This document shows, piece by piece, positions 2,481 through 36,050 of a stretch of 64,000 bases of DNA; positions within the stretch are counted from its first letter, which is position 1, and each line of letters begins with the position of its first letter. The DNA comes from Candidatus Methanoperedens sp. (lineage in GTDB: Archaea; Halobacteriota; Methanosarcinia; Methanosarcinales; Methanoperedenaceae). The notes under the pieces are model-generated. The model worked only from the letters and a program-made list of their open reading frames with translations. It made no database searches and was not told where the DNA came from. The position numbers were made by a program, and so were the translations under genes. The DNA lies in the NCBI GenBank assembly GCA_012026795.1, contig VEPM01000022.1:1-64000 (forward strand). Direction: 5' to 3'.

Positions 2481-2891
2481 ATGAACCGGAAACAAAGAAA
2501 CATGCTTGGTGTCGGGATAGTAGTTATACTTATATTATTTCTTGGAGTGCAAAGTTTCAGTAACGCGCTCTCATTTTACTATGAAGTGGATGAGTTTGTT
2601 CAGAAAGCTGATACATTGGATGGTAAAATCGTAAATGTTAATGGCACCATACTGAAGGGATCGACGGTCTGGGTGCCGGAAAAAGCCTTACTGACATTTA
2701 AACTTGTGGATAAGAATTCTTCAATCACTGTCGTATCAAACCAGGGAATGCCGGGAAATTATAAAGAGGGGATCCCGGCAGTTGTAACAGGAATTTACGT
2801 AAATGGTACTTTCGAGGCAACCCAGGTCGTTACAAAATGTCCTTCCAAATATGGCGGTGATCTTGATCACGGAGATCATAACGAAACATAA
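2481..2891 (+). CDS. ccmE: Cytochrome c maturation heme chaperone CcmE (archaeal CxxxY type)
   Basis: A 136-residue membrane-anchored heme chaperone. An N-terminal span (about residues 8-28) is followed by an OB-fold domain with the family pattern DGKIVNVNGTIL and YVNGTFEATQVVTKCPSKY. Bacterial CcmE binds heme covalently through His in HxxxY. Here the motif is CPSKY, that is CxxxY, as known for archaeal and some bacterial CcmE. It takes heme for transfer to apocytochromes through CcmF. It heads the plus-strand ccm run, 14 nt before ccmF, and has two palindromic operators around its TATA box. Confidence 0.93.
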   Translation: MNRKQRNMLGVGIVVILILFLGVQSFSNALSFYYEVDEFVQKADTLDGKIVNVNGTILKGSTVWVPEKALLTFKLVDKNSSITVVSNQGMPGNYKEGIPAVVTGIYVNGTFEATQVVTKCPSKYGGDLDHGDHNET

Positions 2892-2905
2892 AAAGGAGAA
2901 AAAAA

Positions 2906-4912
2906 ATGGAATTAGGTGAAACAACATTAATTATCGCACTGTTATTGACCGTATACGCACTCGTTGCGCATATAATCGGGATATGGAAAAAGAAAAATGA
3001 GCTTATCGACAGCGGCAGGATCGCCATAATCGGCATCGGGGTGCTGACCACTATTGCTTCAATCTGGCTTTTTAATCTGTTTATTAACCGCAACTTCCAG
3101 TATGAGTATGTGGCATTGTACAGCAGTCTTGACCTTCCCATGTTATATACGATCTCAGCTTTCTGGGCAGGAGCTGACGGTTCATTACTGCTCTGGGCAT
3201 GGCTTATTTCGATCTATATTGCTATGATAGCAGTCCGGGGAAAATCCTACGATAATCTGATGAGACATGCTATGGTCATAATTCTTGCCACTCTTTCTTA
3301 TTTCTTCTATATGTTACTTACAGTCTCGCGTCCATTCAGGATGCTTGACTTCATGCCAGCGGATGGGAATGGCTTAAATCCCATACTCCAAGATCCCGGA
3401 ATGTTTTTCCATCCTCCTACGCTTTTCTGGGGTTATGCCGGGGTATTGATCCCATTCGCCCTGATGATCGCGGGGATATATCTTACAGATGATACATGGA
3501 CATATCGCGCGCGCCGCTGGGCGCTCTGGGCATGGCTTGGACTGGCTCTTGGCAACATGTTCGGGAGCTGGTGGGCATATACGGTGCTCAACTGGGGCGG
3601 GTTCTGGGGCTGGGATCCTGTTGAGAACGCTTCATTCCTTCCCTGGCTAACTATGACCGCATTCTACCACAGCACTATGATACAGGAACGTAAGGGCGGG
3701 ATGAAGTTCTGGAATATCCTTCTCATCCTTTTCACATGGGAGCTTACGGTTTATGGTACGCTCCTTACCCGGAGCGGTATAATCGCTTCTGTCCATACTT
3801 TCGGGCAGTCTGTGACCGCTCCTTATTATATCAACTACATGATCGTAGTACTTGCAGTCTCCCTGGCTCTTGTGGCATGGAAATACAATACGATAAAAAG
3901 CAAGAAAATCCTGGAATCTCTTGTATCCCGTGAAGCGAGTTTTCTATATAATAACTGGATATTCATGGCCTCTACAGTATCAGTGTTGTGGGGAACCTCA
4001 TATCCTCTCCTTTCTGAAGCATTCCGCGGCTATAAGGTGATGGTTGGGCCGAGTTTCTACAACCAGGTAAATGTACCTCTTGGTATAGCGCTTCTATTTC
4101 TAATGGGTATATGTCCTCTCATAGCATGGAGGAAGGCATCTGTTTCTCATCTTGAGCGAAACTTTACAAAGCCTCTTGCAGCAGCGGTTATTGCAATGAT
4201 AATCGCTTTTGCCATCGGAATACGGGATTTCTATGCGCAGGTCGCAGTGGTAGGCAGTTTACTTGTCATCTCAACCCATCTTCTGGATGTTTCCAGGATA
4301 GTGAACAAGCAGAAAAAGCTGGAAGATAAAGGAGTATTAAAGAATATTTACAGGGCATTCATGAACAACCGCCGTACCTTTGGAGGCTACCTGTGCCATA
4401 TTGGAATCCTTATGATAATCGTGTCAGCCGCAGGTGCTGTAGTGTATGCGCAGGATGGGACATTTAACATGAGGATCGGCGGCACATACAGCGTGGGCGA
4501 TTATGATTTCAAACTCACAAGTATCGACCAGTATCCACAAAACAATAGGGAGGTGCAGGCTGCATATTTTGATGTTTATAAGAACGGAGAGAGAATTTTG
4601 ACAAAAGCCACGGCGCTCATGTATTATTATTCAAAGCAGCAAAACACCAATGTCAAACCTATGGCTTATACAGTGGGCATTGATGACCTGTATTTCTCAG
4701 CCCAGGCCATAACGGCTGATAGTGCAACTATTAAACTCAAAGTGATGCCATTGATGTTCCTGATGTGGCTGGGTGGATTCCACGTGCTTATACTGGGAAT
4801 AGTGATATGCCTGTCAACTGTTGTACCGATAAGGAGAAAAATAGCATCTGATGATATAAATATAAATCAAAACATTCAAAAATTATCTACGGAGAGTATA
4901 CATGATATATAA
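2906..4912 (+). CDS. ccmF: Cytochrome c heme lyase subunit CcmF
   Basis: A 668-residue polytopic membrane protein with the usual CcmF length. The WWD heme-handling domain is visible as NWGGFWGWDPVENASFLPWL near residues 230-250, after GSWWAYTV. A large extracytoplasmic loop precedes the last span. It attaches heme delivered by CcmE to CXXCH apocytochromes. A strong AAAGGAG site precedes the ATG. Its end overlaps the first ccmH-like gene by 11 nt, indicating coupling. The ABC pair ccmA/ccmB is not in this window. Confidence 0.95.
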   Translation: MELGETTLIIALLLTVYALVAHIIGIWKKKNELIDSGRIAIIGIGVLTTIASIWLFNLFINRNFQYEYVALYSSLDLPMLYTISAFWAGADGSLLLWAWLISIYIAMIAVRGKSYDNLMRHAMVIILATLSYFFYMLLTVSRPFRMLDFMPADGNGLNPILQDPGMFFHPPTLFWGYAGVLIPFALMIAGIYLTDDTWTYRARRWALWAWLGLALGNMFGSWWAYTVLNWGGFWGWDPVENASFLPWLTMTAFYHSTMIQERKGGMKFWNILLILFTWELTVYGTLLTRSGIIASVHTFGQSVTAPYYINYMIVVLAVSLALVAWKYNTIKSKKILESLVSREASFLYNNWIFMASTVSVLWGTSYPLLSEAFRGYKVMVGPSFYNQVNVPLGIALLFLMGICPLIAWRKASVSHLERNFTKPLAAAVIAMIIAFAIGIRDFYAQVAVVGSLLVISTHLLDVSRIVNKQKKLEDKGVLKNIYRAFMNNRRTFGGYLCHIGILMIIVSAAGAVVYAQDGTFNMRIGGTYSVGDYDFKLTSIDQYPQNNREVQAAYFDVYKNGERILTKATALMYYYSKQQNTNVKPMAYTVGIDDLYFSAQAITADSATIKLKVMPLMFLMWLGGFHVLILGIVICLSTVVPIRRKIASDDININQNIQKLSTESIHDI

Positions 4913-8448: not shown

Positions 8449-8919
8449 GTGTCAAAATTAAAGAAATATAAAGGAACGAAAGGAAAGCAAGAGAAAAAAC
8501 TTCCATACAAAAGCATTCTGTTCATGTTTATCGTTATTGCGATTTTTAGCAGCGCGATATATTTGATCATGAGCAAATCAGCAGCCTTGGAACCTGTTGA
8601 TAAAGATGCCATTAAAATGACCATCACAATGGCAGGTTTTGAACCCAATATAATCAGGGCAAAGGCAGGGCAGCCTGTCACCATAAACCTGATCAATCCT
8701 GATAATTCGATGCACACAGACGGCGGCGGCATCCACAACTTCATGCTTACCGGAGGTATGGAAAGTGTAAGGTCAAACCTGAATATCACGGTTTTACCAG
8801 AAAGCCAGAAGGTGTTCACATTCACTCCCACAAAACCCGGAGAATACCACTGGTACTGCGATTCATGTTGCGGAGGCAAAGAAAATCCGAGCATGCATGG
8901 GACGCTGATAGTTGCCTGA
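8449..8919 (+). CDS. Membrane-anchored cupredoxin with CDSCCGG motif
   Basis: 156 residues from a GTG with GGGAGGA upstream. A cytoplasmic basic tail and one span (about 22-43) anchor an extracytoplasmic cupredoxin domain. Visible copper-ligand candidates are GIHNFML, then YHWYCDSCCGGKENPSMHG. Compared with the CuA motif CxxxC...HxxM of oxidase subunit II, the loop has one extra cysteine (CDSCC) and the last ligands read SMHG. It may carry copper or electrons for cytochrome maturation. It sits between the ccm modules and ccdA, consistent with a redox or copper-delivery role, which is inference. Confidence 0.8.
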   Translation: MSKLKKYKGTKGKQEKKLPYKSILFMFIVIAIFSSAIYLIMSKSAALEPVDKDAIKMTITMAGFEPNIIRAKAGQPVTINLINPDNSMHTDGGGIHNFMLTGGMESVRSNLNITVLPESQKVFTFTPTKPGEYHWYCDSCCGGKENPSMHGTLIVA

Positions 8920-9628: not shown

Positions 9629-9641
9629 TATGGAGATTAAA

Positions 9642-10124
9642 ATGAAATCAAAATACATCCTTTATGCGATTGTGATCTCTGCGGTCTTGATAATAATTTA
9701 CGCCCTGTCCGGCAGTTCACAAATATTATACAAAACAGTTATTGAAAAACCAGTATCCGGTGATACTAATAAACTCCTGGAACCTGAACTTCCTGATTTC
9801 GTCGAGAAAACAGGGCGTGTAGCAGAGGCATATATTTTTGCAGCCCAGAACCAGGATAAGGTCATGTATCTCGCCTGTTATTGCGGATGCGCAGGCATGC
9901 AGCATTCGGATAAGCTACTATCACATAAGAGCCTGAAGGATTGTTATATAAAGCCCGATGGCAGCTATGAGCCCCATGCTTCTGAATGCAAGCTGTGTAA
10001 CGACATAACACTTGAGGCAAGGGACATGTTGATGACGGGATATTCACTGAAAGATGTCAGGAAAATCATTGATGATAAGTATTCAGGCAGGGGTGTTGGA
10101 ACAAATACGTCGCTGCCAGTTTAA
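9642..10124 (+). CDS. PCYCGC-type exported protein
   Basis: 160 residues; the ATG at 9642 has GGAG seven nt upstream, better than the ATG at 9630. An N-terminal anchor is followed by an extracytoplasmic domain with ACYCGCAGMQHSDKLL, then LKDCYIKPDGS and ASECKLCNDI, and a C-terminal helical GYSLKDVRKIIDDKY. This matches the Pfam family of unknown function with a PCYCGC motif. The six clustered cysteines and histidines suggest metal or heme binding. Its position directly after ccdA links it to extracytoplasmic redox or metal handling. Confidence 0.75.
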   Translation: MKSKYILYAIVISAVLIIIYALSGSSQILYKTVIEKPVSGDTNKLLEPELPDFVEKTGRVAEAYIFAAQNQDKVMYLACYCGCAGMQHSDKLLSHKSLKDCYIKPDGSYEPHASECKLCNDITLEARDMLMTGYSLKDVRKIIDDKYSGRGVGTNTSLPV

Positions 10125-20701: not shown

Positions 20702-21205
20702 CTATTTGATTTTGACAATAATCTTCTTCCTCGTTACGGGAATTAATTTTTTCCATTCGATTGTGCAGTCTTTTTCTATCTTAAAATCCTCGGTTGTTGA
20801 ATTTGGTGAGTTCCCGTTAACTTCATAGAGGTAAAGCCCATCTTCTCCATCGATAGCCATAACAAACTCTTTGCCCCCAACCGTTTTTAATTCTACCCCG
20901 GATACTCTTCTCAGGGCTTCCAGAATACTTGAACCTTTTTGCAGATCAATCGTGTGTGAGTCGGCAAGTTCATCAAGCATTCCGTATATGTTTTTTATTT
21001 TACTGCCAAGCACATGTGTTTTGCCAAACTTCCTTATTTCAATTAGATTTGCCCTCTCCAGAAGCTTAGCATGTTTAGCCACTACCGGAACAGAGAGATT
21101 TAATTCTTTTGCAATACCTGTGATATGCATTTCTTTCTTAGCCAATATTCTCAGCATTTTCGACCGCGTAGTACTGCTGAGTGCTTTAAAAATATCGTTA
21201 GCCAT
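20702..21205 (-). CDS. ArsR-like winged-helix regulator
   Basis: 167 residues starting MANDIFKALSSTTRS at 21205, the normal ArsR opening; longer upstream extensions look non-native. The HTH follows (HITGIAKELNLSVPVVAKHAKLLERANLIEIRK, split here into helix and wing). The C-terminal half is a separate domain of unknown type ending TRKKIIVKIK. An AT-rich AAATATTTAAC box about 25 bp upstream and no ribosome site suggest a leaderless mRNA. It is divergent from cbtBA, so it may control cobalt uptake. Confidence 0.78.
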   Translation of the reverse strand: MANDIFKALSSTTRSKMLRILAKKEMHITGIAKELNLSVPVVAKHAKLLERANLIEIRKFGKTHVLGSKIKNIYGMLDELADSHTIDLQKGSSILEALRRVSGVELKTVGGKEFVMAIDGEDGLYLYEVNGNSPNSTTEDFKIEKDCTIEWKKLIPVTRKKIIVKIK

Positions 21206-21280
21206 ATGGGTAACAAGTATTGCTTGAATTGTTAAATATTTTACTCCTTCATGATCATCTAAGTTAATTGAGGTATAATA

Positions 21281-21484
21281 ATGACAGAAATGATTAGTGA
21301 ATACAGGCATGGATATAAGTATCGATATGAATTGGACTATGTAATGCTCGCAAAGCTTGCTATAATTTTTCTTACCATCGCCATTGCGATTTATATAATA
21401 GGATTTTCAAACTTTGAAAGCTTTCCAGCATTCCACGAGGGATTTCATGACCTACGCCACGCAGCAGGCTTCCCCTGCCATTAA
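21281..21484 (+). CDS. cbtB: Cobalt transporter subunit CbtB
   Basis: A 67-residue protein with one span (about 22-42) and the CbtB C-terminal metal motif FHEGFHDLRHAAGFPCH, rich in His with a terminal Cys. CbtB works with CbtA in predicted cobalt uptake. It overlaps cbtA by 38 nt. Divergent from the ArsR-like regulator across a 75-bp gap. Confidence 0.87.
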   Translation: MTEMISEYRHGYKYRYELDYVMLAKLAIIFLTIAIAIYIIGFSNFESFPAFHEGFHDLRHAAGFPCH

Positions 21485-22206: not shown

Positions 22207-22276
22207 CCCACTGTGAAGTACCCACTGTGAAGTACCCACTGTGAAGTACCCACTGTGAAATACCCACCGTGAAGTA
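22207..22276. repeat. Five tandem 14-bp repeats (CCCACTGTGAAGTA)
   Basis: Units at 22207, 22221, 22235, 22249 and 22263; units 1-3 are identical, unit 4 has one change (AAATA) and unit 5 one change (ACCGT). They lie between cbtA and the DtxR-family gene, ending 36 bp before its ATG. Each unit resembles the right part of the TTTACA-N5-TGTAAA operator (CCCATTGTAAAGTA), matching 12 of 14 bases, so the array may be a string of half-sites. Confidence 0.85.
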
Positions 22277-22312: not shown

Positions 22313-22978
22313 ATGACAAAAGAATCCCCAAGGATAGAAGAATATCTGGAGTATATATATAAACTGCAGGAGATACATGAATCCGCCACCACTTCGAAAT
22401 TAGCAGAACGCCTGGAGTTAAGCCCTTCATCCGTCTCAGAGATGCTAAAGCAGCTCGAACAGAAGGGACTTGTGAAGTACGCTGAGAAAGGAGTAGTGTT
22501 GACAGGAGAAGGTGAACTAAAAGCCAGGAAAGTGATACGAAAACATCGCCTTTCTGAGCGTCTGCTTACGGATATTCTGGGTTTTAAATGGGATAAAGTG
22601 CATGAAGAAGCATGCAGGCTTGAACACGATATAAGTCCTGAAATGGAGGAAAAAATCGAAGAGAAACTGGGTAATCCCAAAACATGCCCTCATGGTTATC
22701 CGATACCTGATAAAGAAGGGTTGATAATTCAAGATAACACTGTAAAACTTTCAGAACTCAAAGCAAATGAAAAAGGAGTCATTATAAGCGTTTTTGAGGA
22801 GAACTCCGAGATGCTGCAGTATCTGGGAAGCCTTGGATTATATCCCCAGGTTGAGGTTGAGATAAAGAGCATTTCTCCGTTTGGGGGACCGATTCTGATC
22901 ATGGTGTCAGGGGAAGAGAAATCGCTTGGAAAGGAACTTACCGAAAAGATATTAGTACAAAAATCAGGAATGATTTGA
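22313..22978 (+). CDS. DtxR/MntR-family metal-dependent repressor
   Basis: A 221-residue three-domain regulator. The winged helix is at about residues 6-70 (SATTSKLAERLELSPSSVSEML). The dimer and metal domain at about 70-140 has RKHRLSERLL, HEEACRLEHDIS and CPHGYPIP. The C-terminal SH3/FeoA-like domain starts LSELKANEKGVI. Such proteins repress uptake genes when bound to Fe(II) or Mn(II). The TTAGG-N4-CCTAA boxes at 16091 and 19865 are its probable targets. Its own upstream region holds the 14-bp tandem array. Confidence 0.9.
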   Translation: MTKESPRIEEYLEYIYKLQEIHESATTSKLAERLELSPSSVSEMLKQLEQKGLVKYAEKGVVLTGEGELKARKVIRKHRLSERLLTDILGFKWDKVHEEACRLEHDISPEMEEKIEEKLGNPKTCPHGYPIPDKEGLIIQDNTVKLSELKANEKGVIISVFEENSEMLQYLGSLGLYPQVEVEIKSISPFGGPILIMVSGEEKSLGKELTEKILVQKSGMI

Positions 22979-23009: not shown

Positions 23010-24662
23010 TTAATGGCCGCGTGCTGCCATAGGTACGGTGTACATCCACAGGGCTATCAATCCGAACATCAGCATCAGCACTATATAAGGCAAAACCGAT
23101 GATTTCGAATTGGGATTATTCTGCGATATTTTGTATGCTGTGTAAATACTTCCCAGAACTCCCAGTACCGAAAGGATATACTGGATTATCTGAATCGTGG
23201 GCATATTCAGGATCGATGGATCACCTGTAATATTCCATCCCACAAGCGAAGCTGAGGTATATATTACAGACAAGCCTTCACCCAGGAAATGCTTTGCATT
23301 GTGGGCAAGGTGTATTCCAAGTCCCAGGGGGATAAGAGCATATCCATAGCGAACGAAGTTGGAAAGTGTTGTTTCCGCAGGAACGTCCATATCAATGTTC
23401 AATTGCGCAGATGAGTCAGAGATTACATTTGTATTCTGTGTTTTTGTCGGCAATATACCCGAAATGAAACTTGCACCCAGCATTAACAGGAGAGCTATTA
23501 CCATTGCTGCTGCAAACATTATTGTCCATGCAATTGTGAAATTGGCGATGCCAGTGGTGCTTTCAAACCATTCCATGAACGGCCCCCATACTTCAAGCAT
23601 GACTACGGTCTGGACTACCACGATCCCGATAAGGGCTGTTGCAAGGAAAGATTCTTCAAACCGCGGTTTCTTTATGAACCAGAGTTCACTTGTAGGAGGT
23701 CGCGGCGTTATTCTTATGGCATCAGAATGGCATGTCTTTATGCAGTTTGAGCAGAAATTGCAGAACCTGTTTGAATCCATTGTTCTCGGATACTCGAACA
23801 TTGAGCATCCTGCAACCTTCCCGTCTCCTTTAAAGCATGTCGGAGTCTTGCAGGCTTTGCATTTTTCGCTGTCAGCCCGCAGTTCCAGCGCCGAACTCAT
23901 GGAATAATTGCTTGACAGGCCGCCCAGGAAACACAGATAGCGGCACCAGGCTCTCCGTTCATATACTGCGCCCATAAGGACTACGCCGATGAACACGAAA
24001 AGCAGGAGATAGCCAGTGTTCCTTGGATTTTCCACAAGCCCGAGTACTGAATCAACCCAGGTTATTACCAGGAAAGCAAATATTATGATCCAGACACCAT
24101 AAGTCTGGAGGAATTTTGGAACTTTCCTATGCATCCCCACATTTCTTTGCACTTCATCACTGATTCGTGACATGGGACAAACTGAGCACCATAATCTTCC
24201 GAAAACAAGGAACAGGACCGGCAAGATTGGCCACAGGAATATCCATACCATTACAGAGCCGAAATTAAGAGCTGTTTCCTCAGGTCCAAAAAACAGCTGG
24301 ATGACAAGGATGCCAAATATTAACATTGTTGGCAAAACAAATATCAATGGGTACCATTTGCTTTTTAAAAGGGATTTAATCTGAGGATTATTAAGGAAAT
24401 TTATTTTACTGAGCTTCCCGGTGTTGAATGCAACAAATCCTAAAGCCACTATGGCAAGGAGGAACAAAGCTATGACTGACCAGTTGACCTGTCCTTCCAT
24501 GGAGTGACCGCCTTCACTTGTTGTGGCTGCATGATCTGATGCAGGCATGTCGCCCATATCCATATTTCCCATGTCCATACCCTGTTCATTTGCAACAGCT
24601 GGCAAAACGAAAGCAGCCAGCAGCAAAATCGTATATATAATTAACAATTTTTGAGGTTTCAT
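23010..24662 (-). CDS. NapH/CcoG-like polyferredoxin membrane protein with Met-rich exported N-terminus
   Basis: 550 residues. A signal peptide is followed by a Met/Asp/His-rich segment (GMDMGNMDMGDMPASDH) facing outside, several spans, and NapH-type motifs: GRLWCSVCPMSRI, WCRYLCFLGG, then ferredoxin-like CKACKTPTCFKGDGKVAGC and CNFCSNCIKTC. Four C-terminal spans follow. Related CcoG proteins reduce Cu(II) during oxidase assembly; the Met-rich tail fits copper handling, but NapH-type quinol oxidation is also possible. Three palindromic operators spaced 20 bp lie upstream. A shorter paralogue lies at 24868. Confidence 0.85.
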   Translation of the reverse strand: MKPQKLLIIYTILLLAAFVLPAVANEQGMDMGNMDMGDMPASDHAATTSEGGHSMEGQVNWSVIALFLLAIVALGFVAFNTGKLSKINFLNNPQIKSLLKSKWYPLIFVLPTMLIFGILVIQLFFGPEETALNFGSVMVWIFLWPILPVLFLVFGRLWCSVCPMSRISDEVQRNVGMHRKVPKFLQTYGVWIIIFAFLVITWVDSVLGLVENPRNTGYLLLFVFIGVVLMGAVYERRAWCRYLCFLGGLSSNYSMSSALELRADSEKCKACKTPTCFKGDGKVAGCSMFEYPRTMDSNRFCNFCSNCIKTCHSDAIRITPRPPTSELWFIKKPRFEESFLATALIGIVVVQTVVMLEVWGPFMEWFESTTGIANFTIAWTIMFAAAMVIALLLMLGASFISGILPTKTQNTNVISDSSAQLNIDMDVPAETTLSNFVRYGYALIPLGLGIHLAHNAKHFLGEGLSVIYTSASLVGWNITGDPSILNMPTIQIIQYILSVLGVLGSIYTAYKISQNNPNSKSSVLPYIVLMLMFGLIALWMYTVPMAARGH

Positions 24663-24681: not shown

Positions 24682-24698
24682 TTTACATCTATTGTGTA
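24682..24698. promoter_or_regulatory. Operator a of the Met-rich polyferredoxin gene
   Basis: TTTACA-TCTAT-TGTGTA, left arm perfect and right arm with two changes. First of three copies at exact 20-bp steps (about two helical turns), so all lie on the same DNA face. It falls in the 5' leader of the gene starting at 24662. Confidence 0.6.
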
Positions 24699-24701
24699 TG
24701 T

Positions 24702-24718
24702 TTTACACTCATTGTGTG
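24702..24718. promoter_or_regulatory. Operator b of the Met-rich polyferredoxin gene
   Basis: TTTACA-CTCAT-TGTGTG. Middle copy of the three-site array, 20 bp from each neighbour. The right arm is degenerate while TTTACA and the CAT spacer edge are kept. Confidence 0.6.
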
Positions 24719-24721
24719 TGT

Positions 24722-24738
24722 TTTACACCCATCGTAAA
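24722..24738. promoter_or_regulatory. Operator c of the Met-rich polyferredoxin gene
   Basis: TTTACA-CCCAT-CGTAAA, one mismatch, the best of the three copies. A minus-strand TATA-like box (TTTATATA, 24762-24769) would put the transcription start at or near this site. Confidence 0.7.
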
Positions 24739-24867
24739 CAAGTCTTATTGATCACTCCCTGTATATAAAGGAATATCATTTAAAACTTAATTATAATGTT
24801 TTTGCAGGAAACAAGCCACAGCTTTGCCCTGCAAATCGTGATATCAATGGGCTGCTAAGGCAAATGA

Positions 24868-28308: not shown

Positions 28309-28908
28309 TTAAATCTTTGCTATCATTTTACTGTATTTCTTTTCAAACTCTCCCTGACAGGTGGTGCAGCAAAAGAAATAGTCTTTATCATCGAATTTCT
28401 TTCTTACTGCATCTCCTGCCATTCTCTTTTCGCAATAAGAACAGGTCAGTGTTATGCTGGAGGACGCAAGAGGAATCGTTGACTCCTTTGCGAATGCGTT
28501 TTTTACTGATAATATACGGATGTTATTCACATCAGTGAGGTCTATACTCTCCTGTATTGCAAGAATCCGCTGCATGTCCCCCGCTACTCTTGAAACGATG
28601 GCTGTATCAGAATCAGAGGTTACATACAGCTCCTTAACCTCTTCAATCCCCCGGAGCTCTTCAGTTATCCTGCTGACAGCGCCGGGTTTTGCGTTTACAA
28701 GGAGTATCGCTTCGGTTATCCCCAGCTTGCTGTTATCGATATCTATTGTGAACTTATTGATAATTCCGAGTTCAAGCATCCTGTCAACACGGCTCTTGAC
28801 CGTGGGAACGCTTGTAAGACAGCGCTTTGCGATCTCCTGGAATGATTCCCTGCTATTGCTCTGCAAATGTGCCAGTATCTTTACATCGAGATTGTCCAGT
28901 TCTATCAT
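28309..28908 (-). CDS. Lrp/AsnC-family regulator with C-terminal TRASH metal-sensing domain
   Basis: 199 residues from the ATG at 28908 (MIELDNLDVKILAHLQ, the usual Lrp opening). An upstream ATG at 28968 overlaps the ccmC stop and would add 20 residues, including the operator region, so I prefer 28908. HTH at about 4-50; RAM ligand domain at about 60-140; TRASH at the end, CSYCEKRM then YFFCCTTCQGEFEKKY. Lrp-TRASH proteins such as the Halobacterium copper regulator sense Cu. A perfect operator lies 8 bp before its ATG, so it probably controls itself and the other five-promoter sites. Confidence 0.88.
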   Translation of the reverse strand: MIELDNLDVKILAHLQSNSRESFQEIAKRCLTSVPTVKSRVDRMLELGIINKFTIDIDNSKLGITEAILLVNAKPGAVSRITEELRGIEEVKELYVTSDSDTAIVSRVAGDMQRILAIQESIDLTDVNNIRILSVKNAFAKESTIPLASSSITLTCSYCEKRMAGDAVRKKFDDKDYFFCCTTCQGEFEKKYSKMIAKI

Positions 28909-28915
28909 ATATATA

Positions 28916-28932
28916 TTTACAAGGAGTGTAAA
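28916..28932. promoter_or_regulatory. Operator of the TRASH regulator gene (perfect TTTACA-N5-TGTAAA)
   Basis: TTTACA-AGGAG-TGTAAA, perfect 6-5-6 palindrome, 7 bp upstream of the preferred regulator start at 28908. A minus-strand AT-rich box at about 28950-28962 could be its TATA element, placing the site over the transcription start. This suggests autoregulation. Confidence 0.78.
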
Positions 28933-28964: not shown

Positions 28965-29702
28965 TCACAGGTTCTTCGCACGTTTCATAGAAGCAATCTT
29001 TTCAGCCAGTTTCTCATTGTCCATGCGTAAAATGATCAGAGATGCCAGGAGAAGGAAAAATGCAATGACGTTCATAAGAACCGTACCAATCACAGTATCC
29101 CCGCTGATACCTCCTCCTCCCGGTCCTATCACAACCGGATGAACGGTAGCCCTGTTCCATAACCTGATGGACAGGAAACTTAATGGTACACTTATAAAGC
29201 CGAAAATGCCAAAAACTGCGCAGAGCCTTGCGCGTTTCTCAGGTTCATCTATTGATTTTCTCACCATGAGATAGGATAAGTAGACCAAAAAAAGAACAAG
29301 AGAAGTGTTTAACCTGACATCCCAGGATACCCAGTACTCGCCCCATGCTGATCTTGCCCATATTGAACCGGTAATAAGAGTAAGGAATGCGAATATAATT
29401 CCGATTTCCGATGCCGAAACTGCTATTATATCCCATTTTTCCAGCTTTGTCCGCAGATACATAAAACCGGATGCAAATACAATTGCAAAAGCCAGATAAG
29501 CGGTTGCTGCTATGGGAACATGAAAGTAGAATATTTTGAAGTTTACCGGATCTCCTGCAGCTTCCATAGGATCAATGGGAACAGGCGCAAGAAAGAATAT
29601 CATATAAATCGAAACAACCAGTGCTGTTGCCGTCAATAAAAAAAGTATTTTTTTCGACATATCAAGGATATTGATAAATTCCATAACTATATTGGTTTCC
29701 AT
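28965..29702 (-). CDS. ccmC: Heme exporter/handling protein CcmC
   Basis: 245 residues, six spans, with the WWD tryptophan-rich segment SAWGEYWVSWDVRLNTSL and HVPIAATAYLAF. CcmC loads heme on CcmE at the outer face. The first ATG (29702) directly abuts an operator and lacks a ribosome site; with an AT-rich TATAAAAA-type box at about 29730-29739, a leaderless mRNA is likely. A later ATG at 29660 (MSKKILFLL) is the alternative start. It lies 24 kb from ccmE-ccmF but shares their operator. Confidence 0.93.
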   Translation of the reverse strand: METNIVMEFINILDMSKKILFLLTATALVVSIYMIFFLAPVPIDPMEAAGDPVNFKIFYFHVPIAATAYLAFAIVFASGFMYLRTKLEKWDIIAVSASEIGIIFAFLTLITGSIWARSAWGEYWVSWDVRLNTSLVLFLVYLSYLMVRKSIDEPEKRARLCAVFGIFGFISVPLSFLSIRLWNRATVHPVVIGPGGGGISGDTVIGTVLMNVIAFFLLLASLIILRMDNEKLAEKIASMKRAKNL

Positions 29703-29718
29703 TTACAAAATGAGTAAA
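29702..29718. promoter_or_regulatory. Operator of ccmC (TTTACA-N5-AGTAAA)
   Basis: TTTACA-AAATG-AGTAAA, one mismatch. It overlaps the first base of the ccmC ATG and lies between the minus-strand TATA-like box and the start, so a bound protein would block initiation. Confidence 0.65.
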
Positions 29719-30519: not shown

Positions 30520-31377
30520 TCAGATATAGAGTCCTCCATTTATGTCAATAACCTGTCCTGTAATATAATCCCCTTCCTGCGATGCAAGAAAAGCAACAGT
30601 CCCTGCGACCTCGGAAGCTTTACCAAGCCTGCCAAGAGGAATTTTCGCAAGAATCTTATCCATTACATCGCCAGGGACACCTTTTACCATATCGGTTTCA
30701 ATAAATCCGGGTGCAATTGCGTTCACGGTGATTCCCTTCCCTGCAAATTCTTTCGCAAGCGCCTTTGTGAGTCCAATCACTCCTGCTTTTGATGCAGTAT
30801 AATTTGCCTGCCCGAAATTGCCCATTCTTCCGATGACTGAAGAAATATTGATTATCCTGCCGTACTTTCTCTCAAGCATTCCTTCTATGAACGCCTTGGT
30901 GCAATAGAAGGACCCGTCCAGATTCACATGCATAACATCATTCCACATGTCAGAAGTCATTTTTACAAAAGATTTATCCCTTACTATTCCGGCATTATTG
31001 ATCAGGATGTCCAGTTTCCCGAATTGTTTTATGACTTCCTCCTGCATCTTTTTTACCTGCTCAAAATCACTGACATTTGCCTGGCATATATAAGAGTGCT
31101 TTTCAATAGCGTCCAGTTGTCTTAAAAACTCCTTTGCATGTTCTTTATTATTCATCCTGTGTATCTGCGAGGCAATTTTTTCAAGCCTGTCTGCCATGCC
31201 CATCATGTCGATGAGCTTTGAAACCGTCTCAGCATGCTCTTTCGTATTCTGGTAATTAATTATCACGTCCGCCCCTTCTTCTGCGAGGCGTAAAGAGATA
31301 GCTTTCCCGATACCTCTTGAGCCTCCGGTGACCAGGGCAACCTTACCATCCAGTCTGCCTTTCTTCCTGCAACCCAT
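30520..31377 (-). CDS. SDR-family 3-ketoacyl reductase with helical insertion (PHA locus)
   Basis: 285 residues. Rossmann motif TGGSRGIG, NNAGIV, ISSVIG and YTASKAG show a FabG/PhaB-type reductase. Between the second strand (DVIINYQN) and the SYICQANVSD strand there is an extra helical stretch of about 40 residues (MADRLEKIASQIHRMNN...), not usual for FabG. It lies last in the PHA gene group, 4 nt after the thiolase gene, so it probably reduces a 3-ketoacyl-CoA for PHA synthesis. Confidence 0.82.
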   Translation of the reverse strand: MGCRKKGRLDGKVALVTGGSRGIGKAISLRLAEEGADVIINYQNTKEHAETVSKLIDMMGMADRLEKIASQIHRMNNKEHAKEFLRQLDAIEKHSYICQANVSDFEQVKKMQEEVIKQFGKLDILINNAGIVRDKSFVKMTSDMWNDVMHVNLDGSFYCTKAFIEGMLERKYGRIINISSVIGRMGNFGQANYTASKAGVIGLTKALAKEFAGKGITVNAIAPGFIETDMVKGVPGDVMDKILAKIPLGRLGKASEVAGTVAFLASQEGDYITGQVIDINGGLYI

Positions 31378-31381
31378 AAAT

Positions 31382-32560
31382 TCACCTCTTTACAACAACG
31401 GCTATACCCTGCCCTCCTCCGATACAGAGGGTTGCAAGGCCGTATGCGCCATTCCTTCTCTTTAATTCATGGAGAAGTGTAACAAGTACCCTTGCGCCGC
31501 TTGCCCCTATGGGATGTCCCAGGGCTATGGCGCCGCCGTTAACGTTAACCTTTTGGGGATCAAGACCAAGTTCCCTGTTGACCGCAATACTTTGCGCCGC
31601 AAATGCCTCATTTGCCTCAATAAGGTCAAGCTGGCTTACGGAAAGATTTGCCCGCTGCAAAGCTTTTTTACTTGCATTGATCGGCCCTGTGCCCATAATA
31701 TCAGGAGCTACCCCTGATAAACCATAGCTTTTGATAGTTGCAAGGGGAACAATCCCTTTTTCTTTCGCTTTCTCTTCAGACATTAAAAGCAAAGCAGCTG
31801 CACCATCATTAATCCCCGAAGAATTGCCTGCTGTCACAGTACCGTCTTTTTTAAATGCGCTTTTCAGTTTAGCAAGCGATTCTTTTGTTGTCCCGAACCT
31901 CGGGAATTCATCAGTATCAAAAAGAACAGGCTCGCCTTTTGGAACAGGGATCGGCAAAGGAATGATCTCGTCCCTGAATTTCCCGGCTTTAATGGCAGCC
32001 TCCGCTTTATTCTGGCTCTTTGCTGACAGATCGTCCTGTTCATCCCTGGAAATCCCGAACTTTGCAGCTACATTCTCTGCTGTAATGCCCATATGATAAT
32101 TATTGAAAATATCCCACAGACCGTCATGAACCATCAGGTCCACAAGTTCATCATTGCCCATTTTGGCTCCCCAGCGGGCCTTTCTTAAGGCGTAAGGGGT
32201 ATTTGACATTGACTCCATGCCGCCTGCCAGTACAACATCAGCATCGCCAAGCATTATAGCCTGTGCCCCAAGGACAACTGATTTTAAACCTGAGCCGCAC
32301 ACTTTATTTACGCTGAATGAGGATACTTCTACCGGGATACCTGCGCTAATCGCCGCCTGGCGTGCAACATTCTGGCCATGCCCTGCAGAAAGTACATTTC
32401 CCATTATGACTTCATTAACTTCGGTTCCTGCTATATTTCCCCGCTTTAATGCTTCCTTCAATACCACAGAACCAAGTTGCGCCGGATTAAAATCTTTAAG
32501 ACTTCCACCAAATTTTCCTATTGCGGTACGGGTCGCAGAAGCGATTACTACATTCTTCAT
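31382..32560 (-). CDS. Acetyl-CoA C-acetyltransferase (thiolase, PhaA-like)
   Basis: 392 residues from the ATG at 32560 ([15 protein letters not shown]), with GGGTGG upstream; a GTG three codons earlier is possible. Full thiolase length with the nucleophile Cys in [27 protein letters not shown] and the second Cys in TLCIGGGQG. It condenses two acetyl-CoA to acetoacetyl-CoA. In the PHA context it supplies the first step, although archaeal mevalonate synthesis also needs the reaction. Confidence 0.9.
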
Positions 32561-32574
32561 AGTTGCCACCCGGA

Positions 32575-33315
32575 TTACAGGAGGAGTCCGCCATCAACAG
32601 AAAGGACTGCCCCATTAACGAAATTCGCCTCATCCGAAGCAAGATATAACAGTGCATATGCGATATCATCAGGCTGGCCAAGTCTTTTTATCGGTGTTTT
32701 TTCCTTCATCATCTCAAGTATTTTTTCAGGTACAGTTGCAGTCATCGGGGTATATATAAATCCCGGAGCCACCGCATTGACCCTTATTCCCTTTCTTCCC
32801 AGTTCCTTGGCAAGGGTTTTTGTCAATCCGATCAGTCCTGCTTTTGCTGCTGAATAATTTGACTGGCCGATATTACCGTACAATCCCACAATTGAAGACA
32901 CATTGATGATTTCGCCTGTCCCATGGGTTGTCATTGCTTCTACAACTGCCTGGATGCAGTTAAAAGGTCCCTTGAGGTCTATGGTAATGACTTTGTCCCA
33001 CTGGTCTTCAGTCATTTTGGAAATCAATGCATCCTGGATAATTCCTGCATTATTGATCAGGATATCGATCTTTCCATATCTTTCCAGTGTATCTTTTACA
33101 ACTTCTTTTGATTGCTCCCTGTCAGATACATCAAGCTTTGCAAAGAATGCATCACTTCCGTTATTCCTTATCATTTCCGCTGTTTCCTGGCCTCCTTTTT
33201 CATTCATATCCGCCACTACGACTTTAGCGCCCTCTTTTCCAAACAGTATTGCAGTCTCCCGGCCAATGCCGCTTCCTGATCCTGTTATTATTACGACCTT
33301 GTTTTCAACTCTCAT
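32575..33315 (-). CDS. Acetoacetyl-CoA/3-ketoacyl reductase (PhaB/FabG-like SDR)
   Basis: 246 residues of standard SDR length: TGSGSGIG cofactor loop, [16 protein letters not shown] and the catalytic YSAAKAG. Reduces acetoacetyl-CoA to 3-hydroxybutyryl-CoA, the PHA monomer. It overlaps phaC by 4 nt and precedes the thiolase gene by 14 nt. The other SDR in the locus (30520) carries an insertion, so the two may use different chain lengths or cofactors. Confidence 0.87.
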
Positions 33316-34481
33316 TTCATGATCTCCTTCGATTTACGATTACTTTTCTTATTTTTGCTTTTCTTTACACCGGTTTTATTTTGATCGCTACCCGCATCTG
33401 TGCTTCCGGGAGTTTCATCTTGGCTGGCAATGGACCTTGGTTTTAACCATTGTGCGATTTTCGGGCAAACTTCATTCTGGGATTTTGAGCCAACGAACAT
33501 ACCAATATGACCGGTCGGGAAGACCATAGATTCTTTATCAGTACTCGATACAGCCTCTGTCAGGGGTTTACTTGACTCATTCGGAACAAGATGATCAAAT
33601 TGTGCCATAATATTAAGCAAGGGCATGGAAATTTTCTTCAAATCGATCCTTTTTCCTCCGATTTCCATTTTGTTTTTGATCAGGAGGTTCTTCTGGTAAC
33701 AGTCTTTCATGAACTGCCTGTAAGCTTCACCTGCCTGGCCCGGGCTGTCAAATATCCATTTTTCCATGCGCAGGAAATTTTCTACGGTTTTCTTATCATC
33801 GATCCGTTCTAAAAATCCCACATATTTATCGATCATAAGCCTGAAAGGATCAAGAAGAAGGAATCCCATGTTCAGGAAATCCCCGGGAACTATACCGTAG
33901 TAGTCCACTATTTTGTCCACGTCCATTTCTTTTGCCCAGATATTGAGCAGGGATTTATCGGTATCAAAGTTGATAGGTGCAACGAAACTTATCAGGTTTT
34001 TTACCTTTTCAGGGTGAAGTGCTGCATACATCGCGGATAGAGTTCCGCCCACGCATACGCCTAATAAGGAAATTTTATCTTCTCCCGATTCTTTCCTTAC
34101 ATAATCCACAGCGTTATTCAGATAGCCATTTACATAATCATCTATCGTGAGATATTTGTCCATTCCCGATGGGTATCCCCAGTCAATTGCATAAACGTCA
34201 AAGCCTTTATCCAGCAGGTTCTTTATTACACTTTTATCTGGCGAAAGATCCAGGATATAATACCGGTTTACAAGAGCGTATATCATAAGAACAGGAACCG
34301 GGAAGGGATTTTTCACTGTTGGTTTATAGTGATAAAGTTTCATTTTATCTTCACTATATACTATCTTATGAGGGGTTGTTCCCACGGAAATTTCGGTCAA
34401 TTCTGAAATTATTTCACAACCCTTTGTAAATTTTGTAAAATTTTCTTCAATTAAATTAAGTCCGTTCGTCATTTGAATCAT
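33312..34481 (-). CDS. phaC: Class III PHA synthase subunit PhaC
   Basis: 389 residues, an alpha/beta hydrolase. The lipase-like box is LLGVCVGGTLSAMYAAL with the catalytic Cys; Asp and His are in AQFDHLVPNESS and GHIGMFVGS. Early DLSPDKSVIKNLLDKGFDVYAIDWGYP is typical of PhaC. The length and the neighbouring PhaE mark it as class III. A Lys/Ser-rich C-terminal tail (TGVKKSKNKKSNRKSKE) is an addition. It polymerises hydroxyacyl-CoA into storage granules. Confidence 0.93.
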   Translation of the reverse strand: MIQMTNGLNLIEENFTKFTKGCEIISELTEISVGTTPHKIVYSEDKMKLYHYKPTVKNPFPVPVLMIYALVNRYYILDLSPDKSVIKNLLDKGFDVYAIDWGYPSGMDKYLTIDDYVNGYLNNAVDYVRKESGEDKISLLGVCVGGTLSAMYAALHPEKVKNLISFVAPINFDTDKSLLNIWAKEMDVDKIVDYYGIVPGDFLNMGFLLLDPFRLMIDKYVGFLERIDDKKTVENFLRMEKWIFDSPGQAGEAYRQFMKDCYQKNLLIKNKMEIGGKRIDLKKISMPLLNIMAQFDHLVPNESSKPLTEAVSSTDKESMVFPTGHIGMFVGSKSQNEVCPKIAQWLKPRSIASQDETPGSTDAGSDQNKTGVKKSKNKKSNRKSKEIMK

Positions 34482-34488
34482 AAAATAA

Positions 34489-34962
34489 TCATTTTCCCTG
34501 CGATAGTTCGTTGATTTTCCGGTTCAATTCTCGTACTGTTTTTTTAAGAGAATATAACTCCCTGTTCAGTTCATCAATATCTGTACTTGTGGGCAGATTC
34601 ATGGGTTTTAGTAAATTTTCTTCAAGCATTTCCCGGTTGTATTTTTGAGCGTCGATCAAAAGTGAGGTGATTTTACCCATATCCCTGGCAAAATGACCTG
34701 ATCCCAGGAATTCCTTAAAGGTATCGCTGTAGGTCTCAATCCAGATATTGTATATTTCTTTATTTTTCTCAGGACTTATCTCACACCCCATATTTGCGGT
34801 TTTGTCATGCATCCTGTTCATTGCCTCAAGGGAGAGATTCGAAAAGTCAGAAATAGAGTCCATCCATACATTATAAAAGTCCATAAAGAGAGGAAAAACT
34901 TTCATCATTTTTTCTGTTTTCTCTCTTGACGGGCCAATAGCAGGTATTTCACCAGGGTTCAT
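34489..34962 (-). CDS. phaE: PHA synthase subunit PhaE
   Basis: 157 residues from the ATG at 34962, two nt after the upstream stop. Mostly helical: YNVWMDSISDFSNLSLEAM, NKEIYNIWIETYSDTFKEFL, and a C-terminal coiled coil (IDELNRELYSLKKTVRELN). PhaE partners PhaC in class III synthases. It is short compared with common PhaE proteins. The middle W-motif is shared with the repeat protein at 34965. Confidence 0.83.
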   Translation of the reverse strand: MNPGEIPAIGPSREKTEKMMKVFPLFMDFYNVWMDSISDFSNLSLEAMNRMHDKTANMGCEISPEKNKEIYNIWIETYSDTFKEFLGSGHFARDMGKITSLLIDAQKYNREMLEENLLKPMNLPTSTDIDELNRELYSLKKTVRELNRKINELSQGK

Positions 34963-34964
34963 AT

Positions 34965-36050
34965 TCAAACCCTGGAGCGTGCAGCGCGTGTATATGAATC
35001 CATCCACGTTTTTGACATTTTTATGGATGCGTTGGCATAGAGTTTACATGCATCCCTTATAGGCTCTATCATCTCTTTGACCGGAGACACCATTGGCATC
35101 TTATCAAAGACATCTTCAATAGCCTTTTCATGCATCTTCACCCAGAGATTAAAGAATTCTTTACAAGCTTCGGGGTCATTCATGATCCTAGAATGATCCT
35201 TGAATTTTTCGTGCATTCCTTCCATAGCCGAAATCCATGATTTATATAGATTCAGGCTGATATTGCTGCTCTCTATGAAATTCTCGAACGCTTCGTTAGA
35301 TGATATCGCAGACTGCGGGTCAATCATTTTTTTATAGTTTTCTTTATATGTATTTACCCACAGGTCAAAAAATTCTTTATAAGCCTCAGGGCCTGCAGTG
35401 CCTTTTGAGATCTTCTCTATATTCCGGGAGAGCTTTTGCATGGTTTCCATCCACGGGTTATACAGTTTATTAAAAGAATCTCTCCACATTGCTGACATTT
35501 TCAACAGGGTTTCAGAATAGAAATCGGGTATGCCTGTATAATTTCCAAATATCTCTTTCTGGTATTTAATTGCGGGTTGTTCTATAAAGTCATTCGACAT
35601 TTTGTCATAGGACTTCATCCACATTTCAAAACACTCTTTGAATTTTGCAGGGTCAGCCCCATTTTTAAGTAATTCAGCTGTCTTTCTTGTATTTTCTTCT
35701 GATTCTTCTATCCATGCCCTGTAAAGTTTATTTGATTCACCTGATATTTTTATGAAGTTTTCAAGTGTTTCTTTAGGCGCAGGGATCGAAACAGGATAGA
35801 ACTTTCCAAACGAATTTTCGTATGTTTTCATCCATTCGTCATAAAATTCCTTATAATTATCCGGCGCCGAGTTTAAGGAGATTTCTTTTGTCTTATCAGA
35901 CATTTCTCCCATCAGTTCAACCCATGGTTTCAAAATTTTTGTATGGGATTCATCCCACATTTTCGAGACATCGCCACAGGTATCAGACCATATCTTATAG
36001 GCATCTTTATTTATTTCAAATTCTGTGCTGGTATCATGTTTCTTGACCAT
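34965..36050 (-). CDS. PhaE-like helical repeat protein, possible granule-associated (phasin-like)
   Basis: 361 residues, soluble and all helical, built of about four copies of an 80-90 residue unit marked by YKEFYDEWMKTYENSFGKFY, FKECFEMWMKSYDKMSNDF, YKEFFDLWVNTYKENYKKM and CKEFFNLWVKMHEKAIEDVF. Each unit also has an upstream (L/N)YxxWxxxM segment. The same W-motif occurs once in PhaE, so this protein looks like a multimerised PhaE/phasin domain. It heads the PHA operon. I infer a role in coating granules or in organising the synthase. Confidence 0.75.
   Translation of the reverse strand: MVKKHDTSTEFEINKDAYKIWSDTCGDVSKMWDESHTKILKPWVELMGEMSDKTKEISLNSAPDNYKEFYDEWMKTYENSFGKFYPVSIPAPKETLENFIKISGESNKLYRAWIEESEENTRKTAELLKNGADPAKFKECFEMWMKSYDKMSNDFIEQPAIKYQKEIFGNYTGIPDFYSETLLKMSAMWRDSFNKLYNPWMETMQKLSRNIEKISKGTAGPEAYKEFFDLWVNTYKENYKKMIDPQSAISSNEAFENFIESSNISLNLYKSWISAMEGMHEKFKDHSRIMNDPEACKEFFNLWVKMHEKAIEDVFDKMPMVSPVKEMIEPIRDACKLYANASIKMSKTWMDSYTRAARSRV

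Follow-up and report, generated by a model that had tools for sequence, protein, structure and literature searches.

A probable multi-site operator for an Lrp/TRASH regulator before a Methanoperedens polyferredoxin gene, and a predicted Methanoperedenaceae regulon centred on cytochrome c maturation

Archaeal regulators of the Lrp family are the closest described systems for the repeats analysed here. They often act at groups of imperfect sites spaced two or three helical turns apart, to which they bind as interacting dimers (PMC2995911), and in cooperative operators of the Ss-LrpB type three imperfect palindromes lie in one control region. Pyrococcus furiosus LrpA, an Lrp protein without a TRASH domain and with no large regulon described in the literature that we compared, represses its own gene from a site bordering the TATA box on the downstream side, by excluding polymerase while TBP/TFB are not displaced (PMC2995911). 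Archaeal CopR, as in P. furiosus, carries Lrp helix-turn-helix, RAM and TRASH domains in that order, is linked to copA in many genomes, and has an operator in its own promoter with half-sites of the form TTnnCA/TGnnAA. The P. furiosus operator, TTNNCAWWWTGNNAA, has a 3-bp spacer, and Pyrococcus CopR acts as an activator of copA when bound immediately ahead of the BRE (PMC7830388).

Our analysis concerns a 64,000-nucleotide stretch of DNA from Candidatus Methanoperedens sp. (the window). Copies of TTTACA begin at 24682, 24702 and 24722, as a sequence-only reading had noticed and as we confirmed by rereading the sequence. Tandem Repeats Finder, run on the window, reports an array over 24682-24732 with a period of 20 and 2.5 copies, and equally spaced TTTACA triples with a step of at most 40 bp were absent from 400 dinucleotide shuffles of the window scanned on both strands (0/800). 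The earlier description of an invariant left arm beside decaying right arms requires some amendment. The invariant TTTACA is indeed followed, after a 5-bp spacer, by TGTGTA, TGTGTG and CGTAAA, but "left" holds only for the plus strand; since the polyferredoxin gene lies on the minus strand, this arm is the downstream one, TGTAAA, in gene orientation, in which the whole repeat region is TTTACGATGGGTGTAAA-aca-CACACAATGAGTGTAAA-aca-TACACAATAGATGTAAA.

Measured against the consensus TTTACA-N5-TGTAAA, operator A (24722-24738, minus strand like the others), nearest the promoter, has one mismatch and is the only near-perfect palindrome of the three. Operator B (24702-24718) has three mismatches, with a perfect downstream arm, a degenerate upstream arm and the inner ACA kept. 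Operator C (24682-24698) has two, and its distance from the ATG is that of the ATG-nearest operator in the relatives METP1 and nzgw24. A TATA box at 24769-24762 on the minus strand (TTTATATA), conserved in BLZ2, LFW24 and METP1, puts the predicted transcription start near 24740 by archaeal promoter geometry, at the first base of operator A. All three copies therefore fall in the predicted leader, which agrees with the proposal that the array sits between the start, here deduced from the TATA box, and the ATG at 24662. A metal-sensing gene switch of the Lrp/TRASH type probably binds at the three repeats.

The gene behind the array (23010-24662, minus strand) encodes a membrane polyferredoxin of the Fer4_5 family with a Met/His-rich N-terminal segment. 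It resembles NapH/CcoG-type membrane polyferredoxins in this architecture and in its conserved cysteine clusters, and differs from them in the Met/His-rich segment and in its NapH-model scores of 36-38 bits, far below cut-offs of 213-234 (37.8 against 213 for TIGR02163). Because the structure model is unusable (pLDDT 37), we do not argue from the fold, and a cupric reductase activity is only a guess.

The true unit of the array is the 17-bp palindrome. With a 5-bp spacer and up to two mismatches, the window contains 19 matches against 4.8 expected; a palindrome with a 6-bp spacer was rejected, having 5 matches in the window against 4.5 expected. Exact sites are ninefold enriched in 34 Methanoperedenaceae genomes, some of them drafts (193 against 21 for a reversed-pattern control), and the window's own genome (assembly contamination 2.35%) has 10 against none. 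Its single-mismatch sites beyond those 10 number 39, compared with 32 in the control. Sites of this kind are thus mostly due to chance genome-wide, and we kept the analysis to exact sites or to sites at orthologous promoters. No Rfam family was detected in the window at the gathering threshold.

Exact sites recur before ccmE, before a macB-type ABC operon, before a thioredoxin-like lipoprotein gene that is the first gene of a ccdA/polyferredoxin cluster, and before ccdA, with a multihaem cytochrome (L131) and a CcmF-like gene (L161) added in single genomes. A site with at most one mismatch precedes all 14 polyferredoxin orthologues, the window gene included. In the window, ccmE and ccmF (2481-4912, plus strand), which head the cytochrome c maturation operon, lie behind a single-mismatch operator upstream of the ccmE TATA box (2403-2419) and an exact one downstream of it (2432-2448), both on the plus strand and 29 bp apart with the TATA sequence ctataaatata between them. 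This genus-wide distribution of matching sites probably places the cytochrome c-making machinery, and in some species also a copper pump, under one control, and it supports the prediction that the repeats are operators.

Several further features deserve mention. A second, partly rearranged ccm/regulator cluster in the same genome (G000:C16:54000-87964), mostly 80-90% identical to that of the window, has the same operators and lacks a close copy of the Met-rich polyferredoxin; we take it to be a paralogue, since two regulator copies occur in other genomes too. In the window, the cytochrome c maturation cluster also includes a cupredoxin-like gene (8449-8916) and a PCYCGC-motif gene (9630-10124), which again hint at copper, and a polyhydroxyalkanoate synthesis cluster (PhaC-like, PhaE-like, thiolase and reductases; 30520-36050) adjoins the regulator cluster. 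An exact TTTACA-N5-TGTAAA with similar flanks is found in four Methanoperedens genomes (L142:2207, L162:3503, L164:3508 and L085:1501), in L162 and L164 between carA and a divergent mcrD-like gene; the carA/mcrD site was left out of the count of regulon members.

The proposed binder is encoded 4 kb from the polyferredoxin array (28309-28908, minus strand; 199 aa from the ATG at 28908). Its N-terminus is an AsnC/Lrp winged helix-turn-helix (PF13404, 47.5 bits against a cut-off of 27; Lrp relatives in the PDB at E 2.4e-12), and PF24273 and PF08394 both exceed their cut-offs in its C-terminal TRASH metal-binding domain, where Cys156, Cys159, Cys180, Cys181 and Cys184 are invariant among 29 sequences. 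The central domain scores below the RAM cut-off (PF01037, 20.8 against 25) and was assigned to the RAM type on its beta-alpha-beta-beta-alpha-beta order and on Foldseek matches to Lrp structures, using a structure model of moderate quality (pLDDT 69). The gene has an exact operator of its own, TTTACACTCCTTGTAAA, at 28916-28932 on the minus strand, 7 bp before the ATG. Of the 28 copies whose start is intact and whose upstream DNA is available, 27 carry the palindrome 5-9 bp ahead of the ATG (26 exact, one with a single mismatch), L104 alone being without it. The arms at these promoters are invariant and the spacers variable, which points to recognition by a protein rather than simple inheritance of the sequence. 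The simplest reading is autoregulation, and since the same palindrome stands directly before the regulator's own start codon, the proposal of the TRASH regulator as likely binder is strengthened.

The palindrome could instead be the operator of a genuine regulon whose binder is a DtxR-family protein (22313-22978), an ArsR-like protein (20702-21310) or a different Lrp, with the TRASH gene merely one of its targets. The DtxR-family and ArsR-like genes are indeed in the neighbourhood, and some genomes, G008 and G029 among them, have regulon-type or exact sites where the regulator was not detected, perhaps reflecting assembly gaps. We nevertheless regard another binder as improbable: in 27 of 28 copies an operator stands directly before the TRASH start codon, and it persists where a genome has duplicated the gene, a pattern that normally indicates autoregulation; the half-site is similar to the one used by Pyrococcus CopR, itself an Lrp/TRASH protein (PMC7830388); and the DtxR gene is preceded by a different repeat array. 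This array consists of five tandem 14-bp copies of CCCACTGTGAAGTA at 22207-22276, ending 36 bp before the DtxR-family ATG at 22313, and is operator-like with a different motif.

Other observations concern the surroundings and history of the regulator. A CcmC-like cytochrome c assembly gene (28965-29702, minus strand) lies directly upstream of it, and a single-mismatch operator at window 29702-29718 overlaps the start of that gene, a degree of match that the C16 copy does not share. Two regulator copies about 85% identical (L198:2411-2878 and L199:2352-2819) lose homology where the TRASH domain begins, and may be TRASH-less variants or pseudogenes. The copy of this kind in G012 retains an exact operator upstream and adjoins ccdA and copA. 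G013 still has the copA array and the ccdA sites, but its regulator gene is disrupted beyond about residue 55 (L205:4967-5131). Viral contigs yielded no relative of the regulator, and an origin from a mobile element is thus unsupported.

In its domain order, its operator before its own gene and its half-site form, the regulator described here is similar to CopR. Its 17-bp operator has a 5-bp spacer in place of the 3-bp spacer of Pyrococcus and is found mostly on the downstream side of the TATA box instead of just upstream of the BRE, and its regulon is centred on cytochrome c maturation. This difference in spacing leads us to call the regulator CopR-like, with a distinct operator, rather than a proven CopR. 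No palindrome of this kind was found upstream of related regulators (45% identical) in another family of the same order, so on present evidence the regulon as defined is restricted to Methanoperedenaceae. A search of titles and abstracts in the open-access literature returned no comparable regulon in the genus Methanoperedens. The best reading is that a CopR-like regulator, using an operator variant without counterpart in the literature compared, controls cytochrome c maturation in this family.

Comparison of close relatives shows how the array arose. On the protein tree, nzgw24, with one operator at -33, branches outside a clade made up of (LFW24, METP1) and (window, BLZ2). METP1 has two operators at a 20-bp step, LFW24 one and a degenerate second, and BLZ2 and the window have three at 20-bp steps, so that the states one, two and three nest on the tree. 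Throughout, the ATG-nearest copy stays at -33 to -36 and the TATA box lies about 23-25 bp from the first operator, from which we conclude that the array grew inside the leader. The exact 20-bp step is, on this comparison, young. The expectation that the spacing would be conserved in relatives thus holds for BLZ2 with its three copies and for the two of METP1/LFW24, but not for more distant polyferredoxin orthologues, which have one site or a 54-bp pair.

The proposal that two helical turns place all copies on one face of the DNA can be retained only in part. At 10.5 bp per turn, 20 bp is 1.9 turns and the 29-bp step seen at other promoters is 2.8, roughly two and three turns, but steps of 24-25 bp (2.3-2.4 turns) fall outside this pattern. 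Operator pairs elsewhere are spaced by 29 (11 distinct), 25 (5), 24 (5), 53-54 (4) and 19 (1) bp, against no control pairs, and the steps of 24, 25, 29 and 54 bp show that one-face phasing is not a general rule. What recurs in the regulon, judged from these site positions, is the regular multi-site array and not the exact two-turn phase. Such regularly spaced sites are, as had been supposed, a known Lrp arrangement (PMC2995911). Like Ss-LrpB operators, the sites include regularly spaced imperfect palindromes, three at 20 bp here and three at 24-bp steps at the copA promoters of G007 and G013. They are unlike them in a spacing that depends on the promoter (20, 24, 25, 29 or 54 bp), in the TRASH domain of the proposed binder, and in having the window array in front of a target gene, within its predicted leader, and not in that of the regulator.

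A young array also raises the question of whether operator A alone is functional, with B and C decaying by-products of slippage duplication that have no regulatory role. B departs from the consensus at three positions and C at two, and many relatives manage on one operator. On the other side, BLZ2 has retained these degenerate arms, and its differences from the window are concentrated in the spacers (6/15, compared with 4/36 in the arms; Fisher p=0.047, marginal) and point weakly to selection on B and C. The regular triples at copA in two genomes and the known use of imperfect-site clusters by Lrp proteins (PMC2995911) also argue for a role of the extra copies, and we hold the by-product explanation to be possible but somewhat doubtful. 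We consider it likely that all three repeats form a multi-site operator for the Lrp/TRASH regulator, within a Methanoperedenaceae regulon defined by TTTACA-N5-TGTAAA.

The position of the operators bears on how they may act. The promoters of the regulator gene, macB, the thioredoxin lipoprotein and ccdA have an operator that begins directly after the TATA box, as in P. furiosus LrpA autorepression, and most ccmE promoters have two operators 29 bp apart, one on each side of the TATA box. Operators usually border the TATA box, in a match to the LrpA geometry, or cover a predicted start, and both placements fit repression, which we favour by analogy. It may be that the regulator instead activates, recruiting TBP/TFB when bound upstream of the BRE/TATA, with metal switching the complex, as Pyrococcus CopR does at copA from just upstream of the BRE. 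A site ahead of the probable TATA box occurs at some ccmE and polyferredoxin promoters, and at some polyferredoxin promoters it is the only one, so that a dual role is possible. As the general mode, however, activation appears unlikely to us, since most promoters (regulator, macB, thioredoxin lipoprotein, ccdA and the window polyferredoxin) have a site downstream of the TATA box that should hinder polymerase.

To our knowledge TRASH domains have not been proven copper-specific. In 14 genomes a CopA (TIGR01511) is encoded no more than about 6.5 kb away from the regulator or one of its copies, the C16 copy here among them, a linkage far from chance by a rough binomial estimate; none of the genes scanned around the window regulator copy is copA. 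In G013 the first frame after the copA array, upstream of copA, is a small CopZ-like HMA protein, as judged from sequence. Most regulator-adjacent copA genes, including the C16 one in this genome, are without an operator of their own, which distinguishes the system from CopR and makes the copper link good but indirect. Copper is reported to damage bacterial cytochrome c assembly, in the part of PMC6247083 that cites Durand et al. 2015, and joint control of copper and cytochrome c maturation would then make sense. The effector could instead be a thiophilic metal other than copper, the supply of iron or haem, or the redox state of thiols, with the regulon mainly tuning cytochrome c output; genes for cytochrome c maturation predominate among its targets, which also include one multihaem cytochrome. 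Given CopA beside the regulator in 14 genomes, and operator arrays at copA promoters in two genomes, one with the CopZ-like frame first, we see a non-copper effector as conceivable without expecting it.

With copper as the most likely signal, we infer a scheme in which regulator dimers would bind the palindrome and block recruitment or escape of RNA polymerase, limiting the regulator's own synthesis as well. Binding of a thiophilic metal, most likely copper, at the TRASH cysteines would alter the complex and release ccmE/F/H, ccdA, the thioredoxin-like lipoprotein, the polyferredoxins and the MacB-type exporter, as well as a copper ATPase operon in a subset of genomes. In front of the polyferredoxin gene, the operator at the predicted +1 was supplemented by leader copies through 20-bp duplications, and cooperative binding to these would be expected to tighten control.

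Methanoperedens relies on c-type cytochromes for electron transfer from methane to nitrate or metals. The defined operator, the regulator candidate and the predicted regulon make control of its cytochrome c machinery testable, and the progression from one to two to three copies in close relatives provides a natural series on the effect of extra Lrp operators. At somewhat short of even confidence, we propose that family-wide Lrp/TRASH control of cytochrome c maturation may couple copper stress to the assembly of haem proteins, and that tandem duplication, with a step particular to each promoter (20, 24, 25 or 29 bp), would multiply its operators, the length of the array setting the strength of control.
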